From: Rhodanobacter sp. Root480
GTDB taxonomy: Bacteria; Pseudomonadota; Gammaproteobacteria; Xanthomonadales; Rhodanobacteraceae
Length of the DNA: 64,000 bases
Direction of reading: 5' to 3'
Assembly (NCBI RefSeq): GCF_001426645.1
Contig: NZ_LMEX01000003.1
Span: forward strand, 345,449-409,448
Positions within the stretch are counted from its first letter, which is position 1, and each line of letters starts with the position of its first letter. The notes below the pieces were generated by a model, which had not been told where the DNA came from, did no database searches, and saw only the letters and a program-made list of their open reading frames with translations. The position numbers and the translations under genes are program-made. Below are positions 5,039 to 62,262 of this stretch, one piece after another.

Positions 5039-5130
5039 GTAGGAGCGCACCCTGTGCGCGATGCCTTTATTCGGGATTCGGGATTCGCAAAAGCAAAAGC
5101 AAAAGCATCGCGCACAGGGTGCGCTCCTAC
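5039..5130. repeat. REP-like palindromic element, copy 2, with GGGATTC tandem motif
   Basis: Arms TGTAGGAGCGCACCCTGTGC and the complementary GCACAGGGTGCGCTCCTAC enclose a centre with tandem GGGATTC units and AAAAGC repeats. It starts 5 bp after the last exporter gene and lies between convergent genes. The arm ends (TAGGAGCG/CGCTCCTA) match the other copies; the stem interior differs but is still self-complementary, meaning the two arms changed together. Confidence 0.8.
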
Positions 5131-6650: not shown

Positions 6651-6758
6651 CCCCTTCCCCTGCAAAGCAGGGGGAGGTTGGGAGGGGGTAGCTTTTGACC
6701 TTGGCGGAGATCAAGAGCGCCCCCTCCCCGACCCTCCCCTGCGAGCAGGGGAGGGAGC
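6651..6758. repeat. Gene-less inverted pair of CCCTCCCC palindromes (MITE-like)
   Basis: Two inverted copies of the GC-rich palindromic repeat. The left copy (6651-6688) reads inward as GCAGGGGGAGG, TTGGGAGGGGG, TAGCTTTTG; the right copy (6720-6758) is the reverse, CAAGAGCGCCCCCTCCCC through GCAGGGGAGGGAGC. Only about 11 bp separate the inner ends. The ends and orientation match the pair that flanks the DUF559 gene at 10567-11027, so this looks like a short derivative without the gene. Confidence 0.75.
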
Positions 6759-8471: not shown

Positions 8472-8496
8472 GCGTTGAAAAAATCCCAAGCTCTCA
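8472..8496 (-). repeat. GTTGAAAAAATC sequence abutting a stop codon
   Basis: The stretch from GTTGAAAAAATC to CTCTCA, ending in the stop codon of the SLC13 gene, is nearly the same as 40198-40219, which ends in the stop codon of the ELM1-family gene. At 40 kb it is the last hairpin of a large array; here the hairpin is degenerate. It may be the remnant of a once larger insertion. Confidence 0.5.
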
Positions 8497-10335
8497 GCGG
8501 AAGACCAGGTTGATCGCCACGATGGTCACCGTCAGCACCAGCGCCGTCAACGGCAAGCCTACGCGCAGGAAGTCCTTGCTGCGGTAGCCGCCCGGGCCGG
8601 TCACCATCATCAGCGCCGGGTGGCCCGAGCTCAGCAGGAAGGTGTTGGACGAGGACACCGCCACGATCAACGCATACGCCGACGGGTTGCCGCCGGTGGC
8701 CACCGCCACGCTGATGGCGATCGGCACCATCATCACGGTGGCGCCCACGTTCGACATCACCTGCGAAAACAGGAGTGTCAACACGCCCAGCACGATCTGC
8801 AGGACGTACGGCGAGGCGCCGCCCAGGTAATACAACACCTGCTGCGCCAGCCACGCGGCGGTGCCGGTGGAATCCATCGACCAGCCCAGCGGGATCAGGC
8901 AGGCGGTGACGAAGATCGTCTTCCAGTTGATCGCCTTGTACGCCTCGTCCATATTCAGCACGCCCGACAACAGCATCGCGATGGCGCCGGTCATCATCGC
9001 CACGGAGAGGTCGAGGTTGGTGAACAGGGCCAGGCACTTGGCCATCACGAAAAAGCCGACCGCCTGCCAGATCTTGCCGGGCCGCTGCTCATCCTTGGGG
9101 ATGTCGGTGACCACGACCAGGTCCTTGTCCTCGGCCGCCAGCGACAGGTCGCGCCAGTTGCTGTGCAGCACCACGGTGTCGCCCGCGCGCAGGGTGACCG
9201 CGCGCACGTCGTCGCGAAACACCTGGTCGCCGCGGTTCACCGCCAGCACCGAAATACCGAAGCGCTTGCGCAAGCGCAGGTCGCCGATGGTCTGCTTGAT
9301 GAAGCGCGATACCGGCGGGATCACCACCTCGGAAATACCCGCACGGGTCGGGTTGAACAACTCACCCAACTGGCGCATGCGCGGCGACAGCCGGCACAAC
9401 TGGTTGTTGGCGAACTGGCTGAGCTGCTCGCGCGGGCCCAGCACGCCCAGCACCGAGCCCACCCAGATCACGTGATCGGCCGGCGGCGCCATGCGCGCCT
9501 CGTTGCCGCTCTTGATCGCCAGGATCAGCGGCGCCTCGTGCAATTGTTCCGCCTCGCCGATGCTCATGCCCACCAGCGGGCTTTCCGCGGTGACAGTGAG
9601 CTCGGCCGTCTCGCCGCCGATGCCGTAGGTCTCGGCAAAATAGCTTTCGGTGCGGCCGGGCGTCACCTTGAGCCGCTCGTCCTCGTGCCCGGGCAGCAAC
9701 TTGCGGCCGAAGAAATAGAAGTAGCCCACGCCCAGGAACGCCAGCGCCAGGCCGATCGGGGTCACGCTGAACAGGCCGAATTTCGGGATCGTGTGCGCGC
9801 CCGGCGGCAGGTTGGCGTTGGCGCTGGCGATCAGGTCGTTCAGCACGATCAGCGGTGAGTTCGCGATCAGCGTGGTGTTGGTGGCGGTGAGGATGCAGAA
9901 CGCCATCGGCAGCAACAGCCGCGACAACGGCACGCCGGTGCGCGCCGACAACCGGCTGCTGACCGGGATCATGATCGCCGCCAGCGCCTGGCTGGGGATC
10001 ACCGCGCTGAACAGGCTGGCCACCAGGTTGATCACCACGCCGAGGCGCGACTCCGCCCCGCGCGCCATGCGCATCACGAAATTCGCAGTGAGGTTGAGCA
10101 CGCCGGCGCGGTCCAGCCCCTCGCCCATGATCATGATCGCGATGATCGCGATCACCGCGTTGCCGGCGAAACCGTTGAACACGCGATCGGCGGGAATCAG
10201 CCCGGTCAGCCCGATCACCACCACCACCAGCAGCGCCACCATGTCGGCGCGGATCCACTCCAGCACCAGCATGATCATGGTGAAGCCCACCAGACCCAGC
10301 ACCAGGATCATGTCGGGGGTGAGCGACAGACCCAT
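8494..10335 (-). CDS. SLC13-family permease with two TrkA-C domains
   Basis: A 613-residue divalent-anion:Na+ symporter-family protein. Membrane segments occupy about residues 1-190 and 410-613; between them lie two TrkA-C/RCK-C regulatory domains, about 210-300 (ending near VLGPREQLSQF) and 310-400. This split architecture is typical of bacterial permeases related to sulfate and dicarboxylate carriers. SNTFLLSSGHPALMM near the C-terminus carries the family's substrate-binding SNT-like motif. It is transcribed alone. Sulfate is a common substrate but is not proven here. Confidence 0.88.
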   Translation of the reverse strand: MGLSLTPDMILVLGLVGFTMIMLVLEWIRADMVALLVVVVIGLTGLIPADRVFNGFAGNAVIAIIAIMIMGEGLDRAGVLNLTANFVMRMARGAESRLGVVINLVASLFSAVIPSQALAAIMIPVSSRLSARTGVPLSRLLLPMAFCILTATNTTLIANSPLIVLNDLIASANANLPPGAHTIPKFGLFSVTPIGLALAFLGVGYFYFFGRKLLPGHEDERLKVTPGRTESYFAETYGIGGETAELTVTAESPLVGMSIGEAEQLHEAPLILAIKSGNEARMAPPADHVIWVGSVLGVLGPREQLSQFANNQLCRLSPRMRQLGELFNPTRAGISEVVIPPVSRFIKQTIGDLRLRKRFGISVLAVNRGDQVFRDDVRAVTLRAGDTVVLHSNWRDLSLAAEDKDLVVVTDIPKDEQRPGKIWQAVGFFVMAKCLALFTNLDLSVAMMTGAIAMLLSGVLNMDEAYKAINWKTIFVTACLIPLGWSMDSTGTAAWLAQQVLYYLGGASPYVLQIVLGVLTLLFSQVMSNVGATVMMVPIAISVAVATGGNPSAYALIVAVSSSNTFLLSSGHPALMMVTGPGGYRSKDFLRVGLPLTALVLTVTIVAINLVFR

Positions 10336-10478: not shown

Positions 10479-10528
10479 CCCCTCCCCAGCCCTTTCAGTC
10501 CCTTTAGGGACGAGCAGGGGAGGGAGCA
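10479..10528 (-). repeat. CCCTCCCC palindromic repeat with AGTCCCTTTAGGGAC insert (outer left)
   Basis: A copy of the GC-rich repeat whose loop holds the palindrome GTCCCTTTAGGGAC. A 20-base module, AGTCCCTTTAGGGACGAGCA here, occurs exactly inverted in the copy at 11043-11127. The two lie outside the inner inverted repeats that flank the DUF559 gene. The rest of the 306-bp gap 10336-10641 holds this copy, the inner repeat and nothing else recognisable. Confidence 0.75.
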
Positions 10529-10566
10529 CAGCGCGCAGTTGGAGGTGCGGGGGAGTACACGGCTTT

Positions 10567-10614
10567 GCTCCTCCCCCTGCTTGCAGGGGGAGGTTGGGAG
10601 GGGGTTACGCTTTT
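10567..10614 (+). repeat. Left inner inverted repeat flanking DUF559 gene
   Basis: A 48-bp sequence starting GCTCCTCCCCCTGC and ending in GCTTTT. It matches the reverse complement of 10980-11027 at about 42 of 48 positions by eye. It contains its own 13-bp near-palindrome (CCTCCCCCTGC/GCAGGGGGAGG). Together the two repeats bound a 461-bp unit with a single gene inside. Confidence 0.8.
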
Positions 10615-10641
10615 CCGGCCAGCTCCACGAACGGACTCGCC

Positions 10642-10989
10642 ATGCAGCGCCAATGGACCCGCGCCCGCCAACTCCGCAACAACAGCACCGACGCTGAGCG
10701 CCGGCTGTGGTATTTCCTGCGTCGCGAGCAACTGGCCAGCCACAAATTCCGCCGGCAATACCCGATGGCAGGCTATATCGTCGACTTCGTTTGCGTGCCG
10801 GCACGGCTCGTGATTGAACTGGATGGCGGGCAGCACCTCGACGCGTTGGCATACGATGAGCGCCGTACCGCGAGGCTCGAATGCAAGGGCTACCGCGTGT
10901 TGCGCTTCTGGAACGACGACGTGCTTTTGCGCACGGACGATGTGGTGGCGGAGATTTTTCGCGCGCTGGGAGAAAAGCCAAAAGCTTGA
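10642..10989 (+). CDS. DUF559-domain endonuclease-like protein
   Basis: A 115-residue protein of the DUF559 family, related by fold to very-short-patch-repair (Vsr-type) and other PD-(D/E)xK nucleases. Candidate catalytic residues are D48 in YIVDFVC, E59 and D61 in VIELDGGQH, with Q64 and H65; the C-terminal GYRVLRFWNDDV is also typical. ATG 10642 starts right before the domain; codons further upstream translate repeat DNA. The stop codon TGA lies inside the right flanking repeat. The gene stands alone in the 461-bp repeat-bounded unit. Function of the family is not established; DNA cleavage is inferred from fold, and a role in moving the repeats is speculation. Confidence 0.85.
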   Translation: MQRQWTRARQLRNNSTDAERRLWYFLRREQLASHKFRRQYPMAGYIVDFVCVPARLVIELDGGQHLDALAYDERRTARLECKGYRVLRFWNDDVLLRTDDVVAEIFRALGEKPKA

Positions 10990-11027
10990 CCCCCTCCCGG
11001 CCTCCCCCTGCGCGCAGGGGGAGGAGC
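10980..11027 (-). repeat. Right inner inverted repeat flanking DUF559 gene
   Basis: The inverted partner of 10567-10614. Read on the minus strand it starts GCTCCTCCCCCTGC and ends AAGCTTTT. It supplies the last codon and stop codon of the DUF559 gene. Confidence 0.8.
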
Positions 11028-11042
11028 CGAAGCCCGAACTCC

Positions 11043-11127
11043 ATGCGCTACGCTTTGCTTCCTCCACTGCTCGTCCCTAAAGGGACTTCCTTCGGTCGCA
11101 GGGAGGGTTGGAGAGGGGTAAAGCTCT
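11043..11127 (+). repeat. CCCTCCCC palindromic repeat with GTCCCTAAAGGGAC insert (outer right)
   Basis: The inverted partner of 10479-10528, sharing the exact module TGCTCGTCCCTAAAGGGACT and ending in GGGGTAAAGCTCTTG. It sits immediately before the stop codon of trmB. Confidence 0.75.
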
Positions 11128-11131
11128 TGCT

Positions 11132-11833
11132 CTAAACCCGCCGATACAACAAATCCCACACCCCGTGCCCCAGCTTCAACCCGCGTCGCTCGAAGTGCGT
11201 CTCGATGCGCCAGGCGGGCTTTTCGGCAAACTGGCCAGGGCCAATGTCGTTGCGCCAGTCCGGCGCCGACTCCATCACCGCCAGCATGTGCTCGGCATAG
11301 GCCTGCCAATCGGTGGCCAGGTGCAGCAGGCCGCCCGGCGCCATGCGCGACGCCAGCAGGGCGACGAACTCGGGCTGGATCAGCCGCCGCTTGTTGTGCC
11401 GCGCCTTGTGCCAAGGGTCGGGAAACCAGATGCGCACCTCGGCCAGCGTGCCGGGGGCGATCTCGTGTTCCAGCACCTCCACCGCGTCGTGCTTGTACAG
11501 GCGCACGTTGGTGGCGTCGCGCTGGGCCAGCGCGTTCATCAGCCGGCCCACGCCGGGGCCGTGCACTTCCACGCCGATGAAATCGCGCGCGGCGTCATGC
11601 TCGCTGGCCCACGCCAGCGCCTCGCCGTTGCCGAAGCCGATTTCCATCACCAGCGGTGCCGCGCGCCCGAAGCTGGCCGAAAAATCGTTCGGCGCACCGC
11701 GATAGTCGACGCCAAAGCGCGACCACAGCGTGTCGAACGCGCGCTGTTGCGCGGGCGTCATGCGTCCCTCGCGCAGCACGAAGCTGCGGATGCGGCGCAT
11801 GTAATGGGCGTTGTCGTGAGGCGTGTCGGTCAT
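11132..11833 (-). CDS. trmB: tRNA (guanine-N7-)-methyltransferase
   Basis: A 233-residue SAM-dependent enzyme that makes m7G46 in the variable loop of tRNAs. The SAM-binding motif is MEIGFGNG (63-70) and the hallmark [15 protein letters not shown] lies at 137-151; the N-terminal [15 protein letters not shown] is also typical. ATG 11833 is preferred over a start at 11893 because the extra residues would overlay a strong hairpin at 11860-11907 and homologues begin shortly before RRIRSF. It is divergent from the tRNA-Gly gene. Confidence 0.93.
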
Positions 11834-11859
11834 GCGGGTCGTCGGGTGCGGCGTGGAGA

Positions 11860-11907
11860 GGGTTTCAGCCGATGGCGCGACGTGGCGCGCCATCGCGTCG
11901 GAAACCC
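11860..11907 (-). promoter_or_regulatory. Stable hairpin in the trmB leader
   Basis: Arms GGGTTTC/GAAACCC (11860-11866, 11901-11907) and GATGGCGCG/CGCGCCATC (11871-11879, 11886-11894) make a 16-bp interrupted stem about 27 bp upstream of the trmB start. It may control translation or mRNA stability, or be an unrelated palindrome. Confidence 0.4.
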
Positions 11908-15717: not shown

Positions 15718-15730
15718 CCTCGCGGCTGCC

Positions 15731-15802
15731 TGTGGGAGCGACTTCAGTCGCGATGCTTTTGCTTTGAAAGCTCAGAGCATCGCGACTGAAGTCGCTCCCA
15801 CA
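15731..15802. repeat. REP-like palindromic element, copy 3
   Basis: Arms TGTGGGAGCGACTTCAGTCG and the complementary CGACTGAAGTCGCTCCCACA, with GATGCTTTTG and CAGAGCATCG in the middle. The arms are perfectly complementary over at least 20 bp. It fills the gap between the convergent histidine kinase and ilvE genes and may act as a bidirectional transcription barrier. Confidence 0.88.
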
Positions 15803-19958: not shown

Positions 19959-20036
19959 CGGTATCTCCGGTCAGGGCGAGGCTCTTGTGGGACCGGCCAC
20001 GGAGGGGCGGTCTGTCGAAGGGCTCGCATGAAACAA

Positions 20037-20140
20037 CCGGGCGCCGTTGTGGAACGTGCCGCGCCGAGCCTGGCCGTTTTCCGTGAGACGCGGAGGCATC
20101 CGCATTCGCGCTCACAAACGGTCGCAGCGCCCCTCGGCGG
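20037..20140 (-). promoter_or_regulatory. S-adenosylhomocysteine (SAH) riboswitch
   Basis: On the minus strand the leader reads CCGAGGGGCGCTGCGACC (20137-20120), AGGCTCGG (20071-20064) and AACGGCGCCCG (20048-20038). These match the conserved P1, core and pseudoknot segments of the SAH riboswitch, an ON switch found before ahcY in beta- and gammaproteobacteria. CCGAG pairs with CTCGG (P1), and GGCGC downstream can pair with GCGCT in the core. It ends about 80 nt before the ahcY start. Confidence 0.9.
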
Positions 20141-20155
20141 GCAAGCGAAGTCCCC

Positions 20156-27685: not shown

Positions 27686-27827
27686 CAAGAGCAGCCCCCA
27701 TTCGCCCTGTCGCTTCCTTCCCCCGTTGCACGGGGGAAGGAAGCGACAGGACTCCTCGAATCAGCAAGCTCCCTTCCCCCGCTTGCGGGGGAAGGTGCCC
27801 GACAGGGCGGATGAGGGCCGCTTTTGC
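27686..27827. repeat. Two inverted copies of a CCTTCCCCC palindromic repeat
   Basis: Copy one (about 27687-27745) begins CAAGAGCAGCCCCCATTCGC and holds CCTTCCCCCGTTGCACGGGGGAAGG. Copy two (about 27767-27827) is inverted, running from GCTCCCTTCCCCCGC through GGGCGGATGAGGGCCGCTTTTG. Both share the CGCCCTGTCG/CGACAGGGCG arm. The end motifs CAAGAGC and GCTTTTG are those of the repeats around the DUF559 gene. They fill the 194-bp gap between uup and the GST gene. Confidence 0.75.
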
Positions 27828-32835: not shown

Positions 32836-32880
32836 CAAAAGCTGACCCCTCCCCGGCCATTCCGTGCGAGCGGGGGAGGC
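32836..32880 (-). repeat. Single degenerate CCCTCCCC repeat
   Basis: CAAAAGCTGACCCCTCCCCG followed by GCGAGCGGGGGAGGCG has the inner end AAAAGC and the outer end GGAGGC of the DUF559-associated repeat family, but is a lone copy. Confidence 0.55.
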
Positions 32881-44097: not shown

Positions 44098-44110
44098 CGC
44101 CGTTGCCTCC

Positions 44111-44188
44111 CGTAGGAGCGGCTTCAGCCGCGACGCTTTTCGTCGAGCACCTCGAAGCCAACAGCGTCGCGGCTGAAGCCGCTCCCGC
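44111..44188. repeat. REP-like palindromic element, copy 4
   Basis: Arms GTAGGAGCGGCTTCAGCCGC and the complementary GCGGCTGAAGCCGCTCCCGC, with GACGCTTTT and CAGCGTC inside. It lies between the GT4 and O-antigen ligase genes on the same strand, 13 bp after the GT4 stop. Confidence 0.85.
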
Positions 44189-44264
44189 AAGTGAAGAACG
44201 GCCGCACGCCACCGTCGCGACGCGCTCGCCTACAATGCGCTTTTCCTCCCGCACAGGCTGGCGC

Positions 44265-57916: not shown

Positions 57917-58004
57917 GCGGGGGCGAAGAGCGAGGAGCCGAGGCGGTCGGATGAGGCAGGATGAGGCCGTAACTGCCGAACCTCAGCGCCAGGGAGCACC
58001 GTAA

Positions 58005-58088
58005 TACCCTCTCCCCTGCGGGGAGAGGGTAGGGGAGAGGGGGCGGGTGCTTGCGGGAGAGCTGATGAGGCAGCTTCCGTGCGCCGTG
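58005..58088. repeat. Palindromic CCCTCTCCCC repeat
   Basis: CCCTCTCCCCTGCGGGGAGAGGGTAGGGGAGAGGGGGC (about 58009-58045) is a lone copy of the CCCTCTCCCC group, in the opposite orientation to the two copies downstream. It forms part of the 423-bp gene-less stretch 57917-58339. Confidence 0.7.
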
Positions 58089-58306
58089 AAAAGCTGCGTT
58101 GGAGCTTCCCCGCAGCGTGTCCCCCTCTCCCAACCCTCTCCCCGCAGGGGAGAGGGGATTACGGCATGTGCCGGCTTTGAGGTGGGCGGGTGTGGGTTTG
58201 GGCGCCGGGAAGAAGCTTCTTGGAGCTTCCCCGCGGCGTGTGCCCTCTCCCAACCCTCTCCCCGCGGGGGAGAGGAGATTACGGCATTTACCGGCTTTGA
58301 GGCGTG
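58089..58306 (+). repeat. 121-bp direct tandem duplication bearing CCCTCTCCC palindromes
   Basis: Two units in the same direction, each running TTGGAGCTTCCCCGC, GCGTGT, CCCTCTCCCAACCCTC, TCCCCGC-GGGGAGAGG, GATTACGGCAT, CCGGCTTTGAGG. TTGGAGCTTCCCCGC starts at 58099 and again at 58220, a period of 121 bp. The copies differ at a few sites only, which suggests a recent duplication or ongoing conversion. Together with the unit upstream it fills the gap between DUF2333 and ppa; no gene is seen. Confidence 0.8.
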
Positions 58307-58339
58307 CCGTTACGGCAGCGTCCGGTTTGCCGGTTCGCC

Positions 58340-62204: not shown

Positions 62205-62262
62205 GCTTGAGTTCCCTCTCCCCAACGCCTCTCTCCCGCTTGCGGGAGAGGGGAGATGGTGC
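62205..62262. repeat. Single CCCTCTCCCC palindromic repeat
   Basis: TTCCCTCTCCCCAACGCCTC followed by TCTCCCGCTTGCGGGAGAGG is a lone copy of the family seen at 58.0-58.3 kb, sited between hppA and its terminator. Confidence 0.65.

Follow-up and report, generated by a model that had tools for sequence, protein, structure and literature searches.

A small gene of the DUF559 family in Rhodanobacter sp. Root480 is enclosed by two nested pairs of inverted repeats, and the question was raised whether its product acts on these repeats as a single-gene analogue of the RAYT/REP systems. The locus was examined within its window (the whole stretch of 64,000 nucleotides that was analysed), and DUF559 genes and their flanks were examined in its own genome, its genus, its order and its phylum, as well as in named records and in Escherichia coli.

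The DUF559 locus and its nested inverted repeats

The gene, its repeats and its neighbours are arranged as follows.

8494-10335, minus strand: CitMHS-type transporter gene, neighbour of the DUF559 gene
10479-10533, plus strand: outer left repeat with the AGTCCCTTTAGGGAC module
10567-10614, plus strand: inner left type-B repeat, a hairpin and then a G-rich tail toward the DUF559 gene
10642-10989, plus strand: DUF559 gene, 115 aa (PF04480, 138 bits, E = 1.4e-40; PD-(D/E)XK fold like I-Bth0305I and Vsr)
10980-11027, minus strand: inner right type-B repeat, inverted, tail toward the DUF559 gene; contains the stop codon of the gene
11043-11127, minus strand: outer right repeat with the same AGTCCCTTTAGGGAC module as the outer left repeat
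11132-11893, minus strand: trmB, neighbour of the DUF559 gene

The preliminary description had placed the 115-residue gene between 48-bp inverted repeats, and its account of the locus was confirmed. The inner arms are identical at 42 of 48 positions after reverse-complementing, the TGA of the gene (10987-10989) lies within the right inner arm, and the exact 20-base module ascribed to the outer pair has one copy per strand, at 10497 and 11068. In a repeat search the inner pair came out at 63 nt (79%) and the outer one, 10497-10533 with 11051-11087, at 37 nt (92%). The inverted-repeat score at the locus was 37.5, compared with a maximum of 13.0 for 100 dinucleotide-preserving shuffles. Each inner arm is built of a hairpin (CCTCCCCCTGC-loop-GCAGGGGGAGG) with a G-rich tail after it; the repeats in the window start with the pyrimidine arm, and both inner tails face the DUF559 gene.

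It was also observed that a short module like GACC(C)GAAGG-AGTCCC recurs in the outer pair (10497-10520 and 11063-11087). A similar module lies in the hairpin loop of the repeats on both sides of the DUF559 gene at another locus (L021), and it is one-sided at two more (L014, L099), a pattern that would be expected if the repeats around a gene were kept similar to one another.

Further repeats were found elsewhere in the window.

6651-6758, no strand assigned: gene-less type-B repeat pair, tails inward, REPIN/MITE-like
27686-27827, no strand assigned: similar architecture, different sequence; not counted in the type-B family
32836-32880, minus strand: degenerate single type-B-like repeat (by eye)
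57980-58307, no strand assigned: cluster of A-like repeats, in which 58004-58046 (plus) and 58117-58157 (minus) form a tails-inward pair
62212-62253, minus strand: single A/C-like repeat

Recurrence of the family had been claimed for the first three of these places. The claim held for the first and, as what looks like a degenerate copy, for the third; the place at 27686-27827 differs in sequence and was dropped. The last two places are new. When 464 kb of the own genome (the window and 20 stretches) was scanned, 26 directional repeats were found, compared with 2 in the reversed control, corresponding to a density of about 56 per Mb in this sample. Neighbouring repeats less than 300 bp apart were inward in 5 cases, outward in 3 and direct in 1, with no clear bias. 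The strict palindrome CTCCCC-N6-GGGGAG, with at most one mismatch, had no match in the window because the loops are longer. Rfam gave nothing on the repeats at the gathering threshold, its 25 weak matches (E up to 10) all being under the cut-off of every family.

Two other elements were seen in the window: a second, RAYT-type repeat family, with GTAGGAGCG...CGCGATGC REPs at 1734-1811, 5039-5130, 15729-15802 and 44109-44189, and an SAH riboswitch at 20032-20141 on the minus strand (Rfam RF01057, 57.6 bits).

Fold and conservation of the DUF559 protein

A structure model of the window protein (pLDDT 87) matched NGO0050 (3hrl, E = 1.3e-7), the catalytic domain of I-Bth0305I (3r3p, 1.2e-5) and E. 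coli Vsr (1cw0, 1.4e-2). Among 55 sequences, D48, E59, D61, H65 and D72 were invariant and E19 nearly so. The fold match to Vsr, along with these conserved acidic and histidine residues, bears out the kinship of DUF559 to Vsr-like nucleases that had been stated for this gene; for YcjD, the link to Vsr was already made in 2005 (PMC1189080). I-Bth0305I, an EDxHD homing endonuclease, is the second best fold match and also a profile match, and its catalytic domain is the nearest characterised fold. Unlike I-Bth0305I, which is a mobile intron protein according to the PDB, the window gene is free-standing between repeats; it lies between the transporter gene and trmB and not inside an intron or intein, introns having been searched for with Rfam. 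Pfam gave PF04480 for the gene and no HUH Y1 transposase domain (PF01797). A covalent strand-transfer step is generally not expected of metal-dependent PD-(D/E)XK hydrolases. In the distinct DUF559 clades of the genus the median dN/dS was 0.12-0.18 (0.16 for the clade of the window gene), showing that the gene is under purifying selection.

Both the Vsr-like fold and the purifying selection would be in keeping with DUF559 being a host repair enzyme, a Vsr-like mismatch or structure-specific nuclease, that makes triplex- or hairpin-forming repeats, dispersed by other means, tolerable to the cell. The flanking repeats would then be terminators or elements of self-regulation, and repeat number would follow the gene because repeats would be kept only where such an enzyme exists. 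The stop codons of the window gene and of K-12 ycjD, both within a 3' hairpin, fit this reading as well. VsrA of Caulobacter, which belongs to the same family (DUF559), was studied as a mismatch-repair nuclease and proposed to act in very-short-patch repair; a Caulobacter methyltransferase mutant needs it for its SOS response (PMC12907096). In the main text of that paper the terms palindrom-, hairpin, inverted and triplex do not appear, and the word repeat is used twice, both times in another context (PMC12907096). The window locus differs from very-short-patch repair in having no cytosine methyltransferase gene beside the DUF559 gene; no DNA methyltransferase of any kind was found there, the neighbours being CitMHS/TrkA_C and TrmB, and this speaks against a repair role. 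We regard such a role as rather unlikely, also in view of the flank and co-variation results given below.

The flanking repeat resembles BoxC/PIT/TM repeats

Judged by its sequence and build, the repeat that flanks DUF559 genes is a BoxC/PIT/TM repeat, a known orphan type. Repeats of this kind were listed for E. coli K-12, as intrastrand-triplex repeats, by Holder et al. 2015 (PMC4666352), and their build, CCCTCTCCC-loop-GGGAGAGGG-NN-GGGTGAGGG, is the same as here. According to the main text of that paper there were no mobility genes around the repeat sites; DUF559, ycjD, nuclease and endonuclease are all unmentioned in it. The G-rich tail was found to mirror the purine arm at 7.61 of 10 positions, compared with 6.14 for shuffled tails (137 loci). 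The hairpin and the mirror-symmetric G-rich third strand of BoxC/PIT/TM repeats are both found here, the mirror match exceeding the same-direction match (7.08, the same 137 loci) by a small margin.

Repeats of this build also occur as pairs that enclose no gene. Four of the five close TM pairs of K-12 are inward, by the coordinates in Table 1 of Holder et al. (PMC4666352). When 13 stretches of the repeat-rich genome G349 were fetched, 12 aligned as one gene-less unit with conserved ends and different surroundings, measuring 150 bp from hairpin to hairpin in most of the complete copies. Gene-less inward pairs were likewise seen in G248 (both of two pairs) and G194 (one of three, the other two being outward). 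These short dispersed units with terminal inverted repeats, in G349 as in the E. coli pairs, resemble MITEs. They differ from MITEs in that no target duplication was evident by eye in the G349 units or at the E. coli hrpB-mrcB site, where the flanks have diverged, and no transposase sharing their ends was found in the Y1_Tnp search. In another genome (G348), a tandem BIME-like array of about ten TM-type units (L063, 757-1500) adjoins a DUF559 gene.

Inverted repeats flank DUF559 genes across the phylum

In the own genome (3.67 Mb, 4 contigs), all three DUF559 genes lie between inverted hairpin-tail repeats, each of a different variant. The survey was extended to 145 loci, namely 52 from the genus, 46 from the order and 47 from the phylum. 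The genus loci came from a draw of 40 genomes and comprised every match with an E of at most 1e-24 (51 in number) and L032, a weak match in a large protein that was retained and counted as a miss. For the order, 46 of the 55 further strong matches listed were taken, and for the phylum 47 of the 102 listed, mostly by score, so that weak members are under-represented.

The flanks of DUF559 genes elsewhere were not unrelated to the arrangement in the window. Significant inverted repeats flanked 104 of the 145 loci (44/52 in the genus, 30/46 in the order and 30/47 in the phylum), counting repeats inside read-through ORFs; a narrower definition of the flank, which excludes these, gave 78 of 145. 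In a subset of 84 loci, 59 scored above all shuffles. Among the 41 loci with no significant two-sided pair, 39 had a hairpin in one flank or both. At 137 of the 145 loci at least one flank held a hairpin whose G-tail points at the gene, and at 93 both flanks did; the nearest motif on each side was inward in 189 cases and outward in 47. Repeats on both sides, mostly facing the gene, are left unexplained by a repair role of DUF559. At two loci of one genome (L064 and L156; G379, family f48) the inverted flanks were far longer, with scores of 98.5 and 82.5 and a different inner sequence.

The same flank test on 278 control ORFs (400 kb, own genome only) gave two positives, each scoring 15.5 where the threshold was 15. 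Since the repeats are common in the own-genome sample, one might suppose that GC-rich intergenic DNA with many pyrimidine/purine hairpins surrounds a short gene by chance. This is refuted by the proportions of positives (104/145 loci compared with 2/278 own-genome control ORFs), by the inward orientation, and by the reversed TM pattern, which matched once in 200 genomes; its probability is negligible in our estimate.

Ten of the 43 plasmid or chromid records that match an enterobacterial DUF559 protein were also examined. Significant inverted flanks were found in five of the ten (A. lipoferum, Sphingomonas, two Deinococcus and S. meliloti pSymB). For Synechocystis B12, PCC 7002 and N. gonorrhoeae, G-tailed hairpins were seen near the gene by eye, with two-sided scores of 12-15, below the threshold. 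A K. pneumoniae DUF559 copy (in two pieces) and Sinorhizobium M103 had repeats downstream only. The tails point outward from the gene in A. lipoferum and at the two Deinococcus loci, which counts against a pairing of nuclease and repeat.

The examined Y1_Tnp loci do not carry the DUF559-type repeat

RAYTs are indeed found between inverted palindromes, and three Y1_Tnp matches are present in the own genome, so that RAYTs could be what moves the BoxC/PIT/TM-type repeats, with DUF559 as a passenger. Eight of the 11 Y1_Tnp loci of six genomes were examined as a control. Four lay between GTAGGAGCG REPs (L254 in G000; L248, L250 and L253 in G243), three between other inverted repeats and one between none; the DUF559-type repeat flanked none of the eight. 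Moreover, no Y1_Tnp match was present in the repeat-rich genomes G013 (34 type-B copies), G008 (27) and G349 (129 TM copies), by which a RAYT mover is largely refuted. We consider it very improbable.

The DUF559-repeat pair is not a member of the RAYT family. Neither the HUH enzyme nor the REP head, both of which were looked for, is present: RAYTs are HUH Y1 enzymes and DUF559 is a PD-(D/E)XK protein, and the repeats around DUF559 genes have no GTAG/GTGG head and possess a G-rich, mirror-like tail.

Repeat number and the presence of the gene

Of 200 phylum genomes, 47 had DUF559 (a match at E = 2e-14 or better) and 153 did not; the TM repeat was found in 28 of the former and 13 of the latter (odds ratio 15.9). 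When gene labels were permuted within families, the association retained a p of 1e-4. The 153 genomes include 21 with weak matches, mostly in very long frames; with these counted as positive, the TM repeat was present in 31 of 68 versus 10 of 132 (p = 9e-10).

In the genus, type-B repeats were present in all 14 genomes that have the type-B gene and in 6 of the 31 that lack it (p = 2e-7). Gene-bearing genomes had 1-34 copies, including the flanks of the gene itself. On a quick one-gene tree, three gene-less genomes had fewer copies than their gene-bearing neighbours (G018 had 0 against 17 and 24, G001 had 8 against 22, and G034 had 7 against 34), two of these three joins being weakly resolved; G385, G009 and G019 (0, 1 and 1 type-B copies) gave a tie. 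Type-A repeats, which occur in 35 of 45 genus genomes, had no clear tie to gene presence, and the type-C copies outside the flanks of the gene were too few in the genus to show an association. The expected link of repeat number to the gene was thus obtained for the TM repeat in the phylum and for type B, and not for types A and C.

Several genomes count against the pairing. G017 and G003 each contain 17 type-B copies but lack the type-B gene. G323 (140 copies; genome 87% complete), G381 (66) and G217 (42) are rich in TM repeats with no DUF559 match; recent loss, missing contigs or another mover may account for these three. Orphan REPs with no RAYT have likewise been reported (PMC3686654). In G349 none of the four DUF559 genes examined lies inside the abundant 150-bp unit, although one (L158) adjoins a copy.

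The last observation favours a different reading, in which DUF559 is a selfish homing gene that uses existing inverted pairs as intergenic landing sites and recombination homology, while another agent moves the repeats. It is also favoured by the nearest characterised fold, that of the homing endonuclease domain 3r3p, and by the relatives G018 and G001, in which the same site holds repeats but not the gene. A search for another agent, made for transposases of the Y1_Tnp type, found none: Y1_Tnp is absent from the three repeat-rich genomes named above. In the genus the type-B gene occurs at a single site, between the transporter gene and trmB, so that the gene itself is not seen moving, whereas the repeats reach 34 copies. 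As gene and repeat types also co-vary (see below), we hold this reading to be improbable, even more so than a repair role.

Co-variation of gene and repeat

Protein identity and repeat similarity were correlated over all pairs of loci (Mantel r = 0.32, p = 0.003), and also when only pairs from different families were used (r = 0.23, p = 0.002). For 50 of the 76 testable loci, the repeat was closer to that of the nearest homologue, in another family, than to the repeats of divergent paralogues from the genome of the locus itself (binomial p = 0.008). An exception is provided by L126 and L135, whose proteins are sister to type B, yet the flanks of L126 are A-type. That repeat sequence tracks the protein across families is again something for which a repair role offers no explanation.

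ycjD and TM repeats in E. coli

The DUF559 gene of K-12 is ycjD (b1289, 1351407-1351760). Its stop codon lies inside a degenerate TM-like repeat, which is intact in two other strains examined; another TM lies downstream, and the upstream element is a different hairpin. The latter, CACCTCATTCTGACA...TGTCAGAATGAGGTG, was observed to run into the GTG start of ycjD (L218), replacing a 5' TM repeat. The ycjD 3' repeat and one unit end share the outer sequence CTCGGTC.

Of 5375 matching genomes, 3333 cover at least 80% of the sapF-ycjD-fabI stretch. Three others were examined and had an efflux operon at that place, as described in a 2026 paper (PMC12817139). TM places were counted in 59 of 60 evenly spread E. 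coli records, one partial record being dropped. The median was 20 per genome (12-31) for the 37 with an intact ycjD-fabI TM and 7 (2-18) for the 22 without it; this contrast follows lineages and so reflects few independent events.

The strain comparison that had been proposed for filled and empty repeat sites gave both. At hrpB-mrcB, K-12 has a tails-inward TM pair, EH2252 has part of it and SCU-306 lacks it. Among 26 measurable relatives, 20 had no repeat words at this site and 6 had them, a difference that may be gain or loss. At alx-sstT, CFT073 lacks one of two hairpins.

Discussion

The arrangement, its breadth and preferred orientation, the co-variation of gene and repeat, and the filled and empty repeat sites suggest that the DUF559 protein spreads or handles the repeats that flank it, probably by acting on them as a nuclease. 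We lean, by a little more than an even chance, toward the view that DUF559 and the hairpin-plus-G-tail repeats of BoxC/PIT/TM type form one nuclease-repeat system of the RAYT/REP kind, built around an unrelated enzyme. The RAYT/REP analogy is thus supported in part: anatomy and distribution speak for it, and the abundance of types A and C does not. In common with REP/REPIN-RAYT systems there are a nuclease-type gene between inverted palindromic repeats (here at 104 of 145 loci), gene-less inverted doublets, a repeat number linked to the gene (for type B and, in the phylum, for TM), a syntenic gene with varying repeats, and orphan repeats (for the RAYT side, see PMC3686654). When the open-licence literature was searched, none of the titles and opening lines of abstracts that were listed described a DUF559-repeat pair.

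The proposed system would consist of a small nuclease encoded between an inverted repeat pair, with the gene-less inverted pairs as its dispersed, MITE-like form. The nuclease may recognise the hairpin, or a triplex or cruciform that the repeat could form, and would nick or cut at the repeat during replication or repair; host repair might then copy the repeat pair into new intergenic sites. Since no strand-transfer step is expected of a PD-(D/E)XK enzyme, such a break-and-copy, homing-like route is likelier than a transposition of the RAYT type. Dispersal by cutting and repair copying is favoured here, at about even chances, over the protein guarding the repeats or merely inhabiting them. The broader proposal, that DUF559 proteins including YcjD are widespread dispersal enzymes of triplex-forming hairpin repeats, PD-(D/E)XK nucleases of Vsr fold that spread non-autonomous repeat pairs, working by cutting and repair copying and belonging to neither the DDE nor the HUH class, is put forward tentatively, as somewhat short of an even chance. 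If it is true, minimal mobile systems would gain a new category, and the missing mobiliser of BoxC/PIT/TM repeats would have been found.

If the link between DUF559 and the repeats is borne out, a role would be found for a widespread family of proteins whose function is unknown, and the REPIN-RAYT lifestyle would have evolved twice, on the second occasion around an unrelated nuclease. The question would then be directly testable in E. coli K-12 by means of a single gene, ycjD.
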